Source of the DNA: Shewanella sp.
GTDB taxonomy: Bacteria > Pseudomonadota > Gammaproteobacteria > Enterobacterales > Shewanellaceae
DNA: 57,695 nucleotides
Direction: 5' to 3'
Assembly: GCA_021462625.1 (NCBI GenBank)
Contig: JAJNAU010000004.1
Span: 1-57,695, forward strand
The translations under genes and the position numbers were made by a program. Positions within the stretch are counted from its first letter, which is position 1. Every line of letters begins with the position of its first letter. The notes under the pieces are model-generated. The model saw nothing but the letters and a program-made list of their open reading frames with translations, ran no database searches and was not told where the DNA came from. Below are positions 1-49,817 of this stretch, piece by piece.

Positions 1-86
1 GTAGAACAACTACACCACAATCGCGTTGCTTTGTATAAAACAACGACAAAGTGCTGCAAAAACCATCTTCAAAGGTCAACAGACCC
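1..86. mobile_element. MITE copy A (truncated by the window start); terminal inverted repeat ...AAAGGTCAACAGACCC followed by TA
   Basis: Near identical to the right half of copy D (46925-47187): gtagaacaactacaccacaatcgcgttgctttgtataaaacaacgacaaagtgctgcaaaaaccatcttcaaaggtcaacagaccc. Confidence 0.85.
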
Positions 87-12438: not shown

Positions 12439-12512
12439 GCCCTGATCAGACACTTGTAATAACTGGGAGTGCTGCAGTCTCGTTTTTTCTGTGTCTGGCA
12501 TACACATAACTA

Positions 12513-12776
12513 GGGTCTGTTGACCTTTGAAGATGGTTTTTGCAGCATTTTGTCGTTGTTTTATACAAAGCAACGCGATTGTGCTGTAGTTGTTCTACAT
12601 AAATGAGCGTTAATGCAGTAGAAAGCGACGACAAACGCTGCCCGAAGGGCTCGGCTATACGCGCTTTACTCTTTGTTGCAAGGTATTTGCTTAGGCCCAC
12701 TCGGCGGCACACCTTGCGTCGCGATTAAAGCGCGTCTAGAGCGAGCAAAATTCAACCATGAAAGGTCAACAGACCC
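12513..12776. mobile_element. MITE copy B (264 bp), inverted relative to copies A, C and D; TA duplication
   Basis: TA-GGGTCTGTTGACCTTTG...GAAAGGTCAACAGACCC-TA; interior is reverse complement of copy D. Confidence 0.9.
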
Positions 12777-12813
12777 TACATATTTCAACAACTCAAGCAT
12801 CCAAAGAGGTTTT

Positions 12814-32316: not shown

Positions 32317-32774
32317 ATCGCCATTTCCTCAATGTTGGGCTTAACTTTGGCAGGAATGTATCACATTCCCTCGCTACTTGTCAGGTCCCCGGTGATAGAT
32401 AGGCTCCACGGGAAATCTTATGCTCACAGAAAAGCTATAAACAGCACCTATCGTATTCTAACGTCCTTCAACTATCTCTTTGGTGCGTACCTCAATCTTT
32501 CTATGCTCCAAATAGATAGCGACAGCATCAGCAATCGAAACGGAAAATAACTTTCTGCCACACACCAAACTTGTTCTGTTGGATGATTGTTTTGCCGCCG
32601 TATATGTCTATCTATTCAGTGCTCAAAATCTACGCTTTGTAATAGTTGATGTAGGTCCTAACTTTGCTTCTAACATTAAAGAAAAAAGCCAACAGATCCA
32701 ACCATTGGCTTTCGATGCCTATAACAACTTATCAACTAAAATACCTATAAAATCAGTACGTTAGAATTTTTGAG

Positions 32775-42692: not shown

Positions 42693-44252
42693 TCAGCGTG
42701 AGGCTGCTTTGATTTTCAGGTAGATGATACTAAGTACAAACAAGCCGCTGCAGGTAGCAAGACCAGCAACCACAGATCCGGTAAAGCCCAGCACTGTGTA
42801 CCCCACCAGGCTTATCAGTGCCACAATGATGGCATAGGGCAACTGAGTCACCACATGGTCAATGTGAGGGCAGCTTGCACCGGTTGATGACAAAATAGTG
42901 GTATCAGAAATTGGTGAGCAGTGATCACCAAATACCGCTCCGGCCAATACTGAAGCCAGCATAGGCAGCATCATGCCGGTGTGGCTGCCCATCGCCATAT
43001 CGGCAGCAATCGGCAACATAATGCCAAAAGTGCCCCAACTGGTGCCAGTGGCAAAGGCTGTCAATCCGGCCAGCACGAACATGACCGCAGGCAGCATTTC
43101 CAATGGGATATTATCCGACGCCAGGCTCGCCATAAACTTACCGGTTTCGAGCTGACCAATGACTCCGGCAATGGTCCAGGCAAACAGCAGGATCCAGATA
43201 GCAGGCAGCATAGACTTGGCACCGACAGTCAAGCCTCTGAGGATCAGTTTCTTGTCCTCCCCCTGCACCAGAACCATCACCAGGGTGACACCCAGACCAA
43301 TCAGCGCTCCGTAAAACAATGAAAAGCTGACATTGGTATTCTCAAAAGCCTTAATCAAATCGAATGCCTTGCCATCGGCAGCAAGGGCATTAGCACCGCT
43401 GGATACCATAAAATACACAGTCGCCACAACCAGAGTACCGATAGGCAGGAACAGCCCCATCACTTTACCAGCGTTCGATTCAGGCAAATCAGCATCGGCA
43501 CCGGGTGGAATCTTGGCAGGGTCCCACAGCTCGCCTTTCTGGGCATTGCGTTCATGGGTACGCATTGGGCCGACATCCAGACCAAACAGGGACACACAAA
43601 TCAGCAGCAATAAGGCGAAGATTGCGTAGAAGTTCATGGGGATCATTTCCACGAATACGCTCAAGTGACCGGTCTCACTCATGCCATAAGTCGCCAGAAT
43701 GCTGCCGATCAGGGCGATGATGTAAGCTCCCCAACTGGATACCGGTGAAATAACACAAACAGGTGCTGCAGTGGAGTCCAGCAAATAAGCCAGCTTGGCC
43801 CGGGAAATATAGTATCTGTCAGTCAACGGGCGACAGACGCTGCCAACAACCAGCGAGTTGAAATAGTCATCGATAAACACCACACAGCCCAAAAAGATGG
43901 TCAGCAACTTGGCATCACGTCTACAGCGAATGCGCTGACGGGCCCACTCGGCAAAAGCACGGGCGGCACCACTCACGGTAACCAGGGCAGTAATCATGCC
44001 CAGCAGGAACAAAAAGCCCAGAATATAGACATTCCAGTTGTTCAGGGCACCATCATCCCAGAACAGCTTGGTGACGCGGTCCCCCAGATACAGGGCAGTA
44101 TCACTAATATTGAATTGGGACAGTAACAAGCTGCCCAACACGATCCCCACCCCCAAAGACAACAAAACCCGGCGGGTCAAAATCGCCAGGAGAATTGCTA
44201 CCACAGGCGGCAGCAAAGAAAACGCCGAATCGGAATAGCTGATAACTGTCAT
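42693..44252 (-). CDS. Na+/H+ antiporter NhaC family protein
   Basis: 519 aa; multi-TM; FIDDYFNSLVVGSVCRPLTDRYYISRAKLAYLLDSTAAPVCVISPVSSWGAYI. Confidence 0.88.
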   Translation of the reverse strand: MTVISYSDSAFSLLPPVVAILLAILTRRVLLSLGVGIVLGSLLLSQFNISDTALYLGDRVTKLFWDDGALNNWNVYILGFLFLLGMITALVTVSGAARAFAEWARQRIRCRRDAKLLTIFLGCVVFIDDYFNSLVVGSVCRPLTDRYYISRAKLAYLLDSTAAPVCVISPVSSWGAYIIALIGSILATYGMSETGHLSVFVEMIPMNFYAIFALLLLICVSLFGLDVGPMRTHERNAQKGELWDPAKIPPGADADLPESNAGKVMGLFLPIGTLVVATVYFMVSSGANALAADGKAFDLIKAFENTNVSFSLFYGALIGLGVTLVMVLVQGEDKKLILRGLTVGAKSMLPAIWILLFAWTIAGVIGQLETGKFMASLASDNIPLEMLPAVMFVLAGLTAFATGTSWGTFGIMLPIAADMAMGSHTGMMLPMLASVLAGAVFGDHCSPISDTTILSSTGASCPHIDHVVTQLPYAIIVALISLVGYTVLGFTGSVVAGLATCSGLFVLSIIYLKIKAASR

Positions 44253-44278: not shown

Positions 44279-44546
44279 GGGTCTGCTGACCTTTTACGGT
44301 TAAATTGTGCTCGAGATAAAAGTATTTTAATCGCGGCGAGAGGTTTGCCGTTTGATCATGCTAAGCAAGACACCTCTCAACAAAGAGTAAAACGCTTTTA
44401 GCCGAACCCTTCGGGCAGCGTTTGTGGCTCGTTTCTACTGTGTTATCGGCTTATTCAGGTAGAACAACTAGATTTCAACACCTTTGCCTTGTATAAAGAG
44501 AATCCACAAGCTACTGCAAAAACAAGCTTAAAAGGTCAACAGACCC
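44279..44546. mobile_element. MITE copy C (268 bp, diverged)
   Basis: TA-GGGTCTGCTGACCTTT...AAAGGTCAACAGACCC-TG; interior similar to copy D with many substitutions. Confidence 0.85.
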
Positions 44547-46891: not shown

Positions 46892-46924
46892 GAAACTCTT
46901 GTCTAATTTCCATATCCCGAACTA

Positions 46925-47187
46925 GGGTCTGTTGACCTTTCATGGTTGAATTTTGCTCGTTCTAGACGCGCTTTAATCGCGACGCAAGGTGTGCCGCCTA
47001 GGGGCCTAAGCAAATACCTTGCAACAAAGAGTAAAGCGCGTATAGCCGAGCCCTTCGGGCAGCGTTTGTCGTCGATTTCTACTGCATTAACGCTCATTTG
47101 TGTAGAACAACTACACCACAATCCCGTTGCTTTGTATAAAACAACGACAAAGTGTTGCAAAAACCATCTTCAAAGGTCAACAGACCC
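46925..47187. mobile_element. MITE copy D (263 bp) with TA duplications, abutting the tyrA 3' end
   Basis: TA-GGGTCTGTTGACCTTTC...CAAAGGTCAACAGACCC-TA. Confidence 0.92.
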
Positions 47188-48332
47188 TAGCTGTTGGCTG
47201 GCTTCATATCGTTTACCGACTGCAACATCGCCCTGCTCTCGTTGCGGAATTGCGGTGCAAAATCACCAAACCATTGGGACACCTCTGTAAACCATTGCTT
47301 GAATGTTTCCCGGTCACCCCGCTTCAGCAGGTCCAGCGCTTGGCAATAATTGTCCAGATAGTCACTGATTGCTGCCTGGCTTTTACCCTGTGCAAAAATA
47401 ATATCGGCGTACAATTCCGGACTCTGGGCAAACAGGCGCCCCACCATAGCCAGCTCCAGTCGATAAATCGGTGAACTGAATTGCAGCAGCGACGCAATGT
47501 CAGCTTGTTCCCGGCACAAATTAAGACCATAAACAAAGGTCGAAAAATGGCGCATGGCCTGTACCAACTGCATTGCTTCATCGTGTTTCACTGCCTCAGC
47601 TTCAACCAGCCTGGCCCCCCAGATGCCAATTTGATCCAACAGCCACTGACATTTTTCCGGGTAACGCCCCTGGCAAACCACCACCACCTGTTTCGCAAGA
47701 CTGCCTACATCTGGGCCAAACATAGGGTGCAATCCAATGACCGGCCCTTTATGAGTTTCCAGCATCGCCTTAAGCGGCGCCATTTTGATGGAGGTAAGAT
47801 CCGCAAGTACACAATGCTCAGGAAGATTCGCCAATTTCTGGCGAATGACTTCGCAGGTAATACTGATGGGGACACTCACTAATACCAATCCGGCATCATC
47901 GAGAAGAGCTTCGGCCCGGGACCAGTCATCTTTATCCAACGATCTGATCTGATAGCCAGACAAGGTTAGCATCTGTCCAAATAATTTGCCCAACGCACCG
48001 TTACCCCCAATGATGACAATGGAGCCAAGATCAGGCTTGATCTGCTTAAAGCCCATCTCTTTTTCGTTAAGATAGGATTCGCGCATCAACCGCCGCAGGA
48101 TATCTTCAATTAATTGTGGCGGGATCCCCATATCGGCGGCCTCTGCACGCCTTTTAGCCAACATATTGGCCTCTCTGTCGGGAGCATAGATAGGCAACCC
48201 GGCACCATGTTTAACCACTCCGACCCTCGCCACTAAATCCAGTCGCTTACGGATCAATTCCAGCAACTGCTGATCGATCTCGTCAATCTTATCCCTCAGC
48301 GCTTCCAGCGCCTGCGTGCTCTGCTCACTCAT
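47187..48332 (-). CDS. tyrA: Bifunctional chorismate mutase/prephenate dehydrogenase
   Basis: N-terminal chorismate mutase ([27 protein letters not shown]), then prephenate dehydrogenase ([18 protein letters not shown]). Confidence 0.96.
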
Positions 48333-49525: not shown

Positions 49526-49635
49526 CCTGAGTTCTATAGGCTACTCAAGTGTTATTTTGCTTTTGACAGGAATAGATTAATCAATAGAAGACTATTGAGC
49601 TGTGCATACTGACAGAGGCTTCGGTGTGTAGCTAG

Positions 49636-49817
49636 CCTACATGAGAAGCCGATAACGCAGGAGAAATGGGCCACAAACACTGCCCATAGGGCTGGGCTAA
49701 AAGCGTTTTAAGCTTGGTTTGGTGTATTTACTTAGCATGACTATGCGCCGCACACCTCGGGGCGCCTAAAACGCTTTTCAGCAGTACATCATTCGACCGC
49801 GAAAGGTCAGCAGACCC
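49636..49817. mobile_element. MITE copy E, degenerate, copy-B orientation; left end lost (left boundary approximate)
   Basis: cacaaacactgcccatagggctgggctaaaagcg...gccgcacacctcggggcgcctaaaacgc...gaccgcgaaaggtcagcagaccc-TA aligns with the copy B interior and right TIR. Confidence 0.75.

Follow-up and report, generated by a model that had tools for sequence, protein, structure and literature searches.

A Shewanella MITE family with IS5-type ends, insertions in stop codons and a two-hairpin core that may reach across Pseudomonadota

The stretch of DNA analysed here (the window) is 57,695 nucleotides long and is the whole of one contig, C4, of a Shewanella sp. genome assembly (261 contigs, 3.37 Mb). 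A first-pass annotation, made from the sequence alone, had proposed that at least five copies of a MITE family with a common TIR are dispersed in the window. This proposal holds: the 16-bp end GGGTCTGTTGACCTTT occurs as eight TIRs with at most one mismatch, all at positions named in that annotation. A ninth match, with three mismatches (32684-32699), has no element around it. When up to three mismatches are allowed, 0.5 matches are expected in the shuffled window, and none of 100 shuffles reached nine.

Two of the copies are complete. Copy B (12513-12776, minus strand; 264 bp) is flanked by TA on both sides (12511-12512 and 12777-12778), and a covariance model described below places its hairpin arms at 12543-12640 (plus) and 12649-12746 (minus). 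Copy D (46925-47187, plus strand; 263 bp) lies within a TA duplication (46923-46924 and 47188-47189), and the same model finds its arms, in the conserved fold, at 46955-47051 (plus) and 47060-47157 (minus). Copy A (1-86, plus strand; TIR at 71-86) is the right end of a further MITE. Because the window is an entire contig, this copy has been truncated at the contig start by the assembly, and is not a biological fragment. Copies B and D share about 97% identity and the remnant A, compared with D over 89 bp, shares 98%, which bears out the recent activity that had been suggested for these three.

Copies C and E are older, as had also been supposed. Copy C (44279-44546, plus strand; 268 bp; arms at 44309-44407, plus, and 44416-44516, minus) is less alike (about 75-84%, varying by stretch). 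Its left flank is TA and its right flank TG. Copy C sits in a leader, between a lysine riboswitch (RF00168; 44631-44829, minus) and an NhaC-type antiporter gene (42693-44252, minus), which the riboswitch probably controls. Copy E (minus strand) has lost its left TIR and retains a right TIR with one mismatch (49802-49817). It was originally drawn at about 49636-49817; since the covariance model finds both arms (49585-49682, plus, and 49692-49784, minus), it is an old full-length element at 49555-49817, with an approximate left border. Of the five copies, therefore, B, C and D stand as drawn, A is a copy cut by the contig and E has new borders.

The statement that all copies lie between genes needs qualifying, as it missed insertions into stop codons. 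Copy D sits precisely in the stop codon of the gene tyrA (47187-48332, minus), whose product was identified by Pfam as chorismate mutase plus prephenate dehydrogenase. The TAG of this gene (47187-47189, minus) consists of the duplicated TA and the first G of copy D.

Copies in the rest of the genome were sought with the same end. The exact 16-bp ends number 115 + 116 = 231, compared with 0 for a control pattern, and the roughly 115 insertions with perfect ends amount to about 0.9% of the genome. At least 40 copies (the best 40) are 96-100% identical to copy B, which points to a recent burst; older, divergent layers of the MITE exist besides these. The elements are MITEs by type, being multi-copy, 263-268 bp long, with 16-bp TIRs and, as originally described, without a transposase gene. 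A 169-bp derivative with an internal deletion (bases 1-120 of copy D joined to 210-263) is present at three places, and because it has its own TA flanks at each of them, the shortened element, too, moved as a unit. Many contigs other than C4 begin 40-115 bp before a TIR, and since the ends of many contigs fall within MITE copies, the repeat is partly the cause of the fragmentation of the assembly. Two further loci have composite structures. At one (contig C58, locus L029:1328-1500), a second inverted-repeat element, of 173 bp and with ends GGATCTGCTGACC / GGATCTGTTGATC, directly adjoins a copy of the main MITE, and is probably a shortened older relative of it. At the other (contig C51, locus L165:1115-1500), two MITE fragments adjoin or lie within a decayed IS5-type element, forming an insertion nest.

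Outside this genome, the distribution of the MITE is very wide and patchy. The exact end is present in 28 of 296 sampled genomes of the order, the present host being by far the richest, and a copy also occurs in Shewanella sp. AS1. Four loci in Shewanella corallii (L076, L109, L127 and L147) carry copies that are 95-96% identical to those in the window. A search for carriage of the MITE by phages gave no match.

The parent family had been left undecided between IS630- and IS5-type elements, and this is now largely settled in favour of IS5, specifically the ISSod6/ISSpu10 group. The genome contains an IS of 883 bp with TA flanks, one exact TIR and one variant TIR. Its transposase matches Pfam DDE_Tnp_1 and DUF4096 and NCBIfam transpos_IS5_3, and related elements carry the annotations ISSod6 and ISSpu10. 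The genome has no other ISSod6-like copy, and an in-frame stop breaks the reading frame of this one. ISSod6 itself carries GGGTCTGTTGATCTTT at each end, next to TA, and its TIR is identical to that of the MITE at 15 of 16 positions. Other members of the group carry GGGCGTGTTGATCTTT / GGGGCTGTTGATCTTT, and the same variants occur in MITE subfamilies of other genomes. Both the TIR similarity and the 2-bp duplication place the ends with the IS427-like (ISSod6/ISSpu10) elements of the IS5 family; in Paracoccus, IS427-group elements of about 830-865 bp mostly make 2-bp duplications (PMC3281130). That the MITE carries IS5-type ends is well supported. An IS630/mariner-type element would also account for the TA target duplication, but no DDE_3 transposase of the IS630 type was matched in the genome and the TIRs match IS5-group elements, so we give this idea almost no credence.

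Judging from these sequence similarities, an IS5-family transposase very probably moves the MITE; the candidate is one of the ISSod6/ISSpu10 group, which would cut and insert it in trans. A transposase of ISSod6 type was matched in only 7 of 22 MITE-bearing genomes and in none of the other 15; S. corallii gave no match despite its 95-96% identical copies. A deletion derivative of the resident IS was considered as the origin of the MITE and rejected, as the two have only the terminal 16-17 bp in common and no interior similarity.

TA is found on both flanks of 133 of 158 copies, as expected from the TA duplication originally proposed, with longer duplications in three; the insertion context is mostly YTAR. 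When copy D and one TA are removed, the site at tyrA reads AACAGC-TA-GTTCGG. In this reconstruction the TAG existed before the insertion, and the first G of copy D therefore remade it. Among Shewanella relatives, none of 29 has the MITE directly after tyrA, in a comparison that is not base-exact.

Insertions of this kind recur, by counts here and below that are approximate because a plain length criterion defined the reading frames. Of 267 TA-flanked sides, 28 (about 10%) end a reading frame of 100 or more codons through TA plus G, compared with a control of 0.95 per offset; in 25 of these 28 the target codon was already TAA or TAG; and stop codons are enriched among non-coding YTAR sites (14:49 for insertions versus 254:2544 for sites; odds ratio 2.9, p=0.0016). 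Coding sequence is avoided, with 5 of 68 insertions falling in it versus 7048 of 9846 YTAR sites in the same DNA. Because TA and the terminal G of the element rebuild the stop codon, the product of the host gene is unchanged. Such self-restored stop codons help to explain how a 3.4-Mb genome tolerates more than 100 copies.

We then consider the interior of the element, where the first-pass annotation had noticed a long hairpin. This was correct, but a second, homologous hairpin lies inverted beside it, and the fold of both is kept across genera. The body of 263-266 bp has a fixed plan, consisting of an end of about 30 bp, a hairpin of about 98 nt, about 9 bp, the inverted homologous hairpin and a second end of about 30 bp. 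In an alignment of 37 full-length elements from many species, the consensus fold is built of a TIR stem, a pair of long arms and, at the centre, a small hairpin (CCC-TTC-GGG). It has 83 pairs, 54 of which show changes on both sides. The covariation score is 0.358, versus 0.05-0.07 with slid pairing partners and 0.128 for shuffles, none of which (of 500) reached it. No Rfam family matched the MITE at its gathering score and none was credible by E-value; a known RNA family was accordingly rejected as the identity of the core.

The two halves of the MITE are inverted homologues. A covariance model built from the right arm alone (R1) recognizes the left arm when the other strand is searched, with E-values down to 1e-13. 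R1 also finds both arms in elements of Pseudomonas dryadis, of Thalassotalea and of a gammaproteobacterial MAG, whose interiors are not alignable by BLAST. The same hairpins read on the wrong strand score about 17-29 bits, and 37 at most, and these low scores mean that R1 recognizes more than the shape of a hairpin. In the host genome R1 has at least 114 matches, and all ten matches that were fetched adjoin at least one TIR-like end. The core is absent from autonomous elements of the ISSod6 group.

R1 extends the family well beyond the order, matching 50 of 399 sampled Pseudomonadota genomes (E <= 1e-5), including members of another class of the phylum. Most of the distant members are likewise inverted pairs, often of 264-266 bp with TA flanks, and have different ends, e.g., GGGCCTGTTCACACTA, GGGCCTGTTAACACTA and GGGTATGTTCCCATTT. 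Their covariation score is 0.798, versus 0.10-0.17 with slid partners; this alignment was fitted to the model and favours pairing somewhat, a bias guarded against by the controls with slid partners and by the fact that unpaired bases stay constant. The internal-loop motif GCAAGGC / AACGC is nearly invariant among distant members, while their stems change. One family (f57), from the other class, has the hairpin core in about 20 sampled species with small, fragmented genomes.

It might be supposed that this is a plain MITE with an unconstrained interior, whose likeness across genera reflects recent horizontal spread. The wide and patchy distribution and the high identity of the S. corallii copies are what such spread would produce. 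However, distant interiors that BLAST cannot align have nevertheless kept their length, geometry and pairing, and the covariation in both sets of elements also opposes this explanation, unless alignment bias accounts for it. We regard it as very improbable. While the element is a MITE by type, these comparisons indicate that its core is ancient and structurally constrained. We would go further, tentatively and with slightly less than even confidence, and propose a phylum-wide superfamily of MITEs that is defined by the two-hairpin core and not by sequence or TIR, that has been joined to several IS5-type ends, and that may represent an orientation-independent folded element coupled to stop-preserving insertion.

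The strand on which the core might act was investigated using wobble pairs. Only pairs that both strands predict were counted. With the plus strand as reference, the left arm has an excess of G.T over A.C (45:8), and the right arm the reverse, with A.C ahead of G.T by 32:9. When each arm is read inward from its own tip, G.T predominates over A.C by 77:17 (columns 23:3, p=9e-5); a non-redundant version of the test is weaker (21:7 columns, p=0.0125). Each arm thus seems to have been selected, or mutated, as the strand that is read inward from the nearest tip. Since the two arms have opposite wobble biases, a simple model of RNA from one full strand is rejected. The element also has no orientation bias relative to neighbouring genes (35 in the same versus 45 in the opposite orientation in tandem contexts), and on this basis a cis role requiring a fixed orientation was rejected. 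The lack of bias fits a mirror-symmetric model, and does not prove a role in cis.

Selection for transposition itself could create the same symmetry, if the hairpins act in mobility as single-stranded DNA or as cruciforms, with the transposase or a host protein recognizing the inward strand. Such a role would suit the mirror polarity relative to the two tips, the spacing of about 30 bp between hairpin and tip and the total length, which are nearly constant across TIR types, the joining of one core to several of these types, and the z score of -8 for folding of the DNA. However, the autonomous members of the ISSod6 group have transposases that work without any such hairpins, and a single-strand step with hairpin recognition is not known from the IS5 family. 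We consider this role, the main alternative, less likely than not. The pairing might instead be a by-product of DNA repair, in which template switching homogenizes imperfect palindromes without selection on the fold. The element is indeed a diverged palindrome, both strands of which fold equally well. Template switching should erase the asymmetric loop CAAGGC / AACGC and the apical loop motif, yet both are near-invariant, even where the flanking stems change completely, and the G.T/A.C polarity bias is also unaccounted for; a repair origin is thus quite improbable.

Our preferred reading, held with slightly less than even confidence, is that the core may serve as a folded RNA that is read from either side behind the stop codon of a host gene. 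The explanation as a whole, i.e., a non-autonomous MITE with IS5 ends that lands in stop codons and whose core is kept as a folded single strand, we consider probable. A transposase of the ISSod6/ISSpu10 group would move the MITE in trans, duplicating the TA in YTAR; landing would take place outside coding sequence, often in YTAR stop codons, with the stop restored; and the core would be retained for its action as a folded single strand. For a transcript arriving from either side, the first hairpin encountered would be correctly folded, often right after the host's stop codon, and the result would be a 3'-UTR structure that is independent of orientation and makes the insertion harmless. Several points speak against this scheme: the resident ISSod6-like IS has a broken frame and unequal TIRs, 15 of 22 MITE-bearing genomes gave no match to its transposase, the IS resembles the MITE in the TIRs only and has no hairpins, the polarity bias is weaker in the non-redundant test, and the second hairpin of a full-length transcript would be of the wrong polarity.

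MITE interiors are usually regarded as passive filler. An interior with covarying stems, near-invariant loops and a fixed geometry across classes instead appears to be under selection, and the defined motif makes the role of MITE interiors directly testable.

A full-text literature search returned no description of this MITE family; an earlier account of S. oneidensis mobile elements (2008) may list relatives. Among known systems, the elements ISSod6 and ISSpu10, of about 880 bp, resemble the MITE in their TIRs, in TA duplication within YTAR and in occurring in the same genera. In contrast, they are autonomous and without the two-hairpin core, and the host's own copy has none of the MITE's interior sequence. 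MITEAba12, the MITE of ISAba12, likewise has a narrow length range and a family-wide spread and is credited to a co-resident IS, but it is 113 bp long, has 9-bp duplications and another TIR, and its predicted structure is weak (PMC6382973). Correia elements, ERIC and QMITE2 are also high-copy intergenic elements with folding transcripts; the review passages used here report neither covariation across classes nor exact restoration of stop codons for them (PMC10969869). In REPINs and BIMEs, too, an inverted hairpin pair is the conserved repeated unit, but REP hairpins are 20-40 nt long and tied to RAYT transposases (PMC2817692), whereas in the present MITE the hairpins measure about 98 nt and lie within IS5-type TIRs flanked by a TA duplication.
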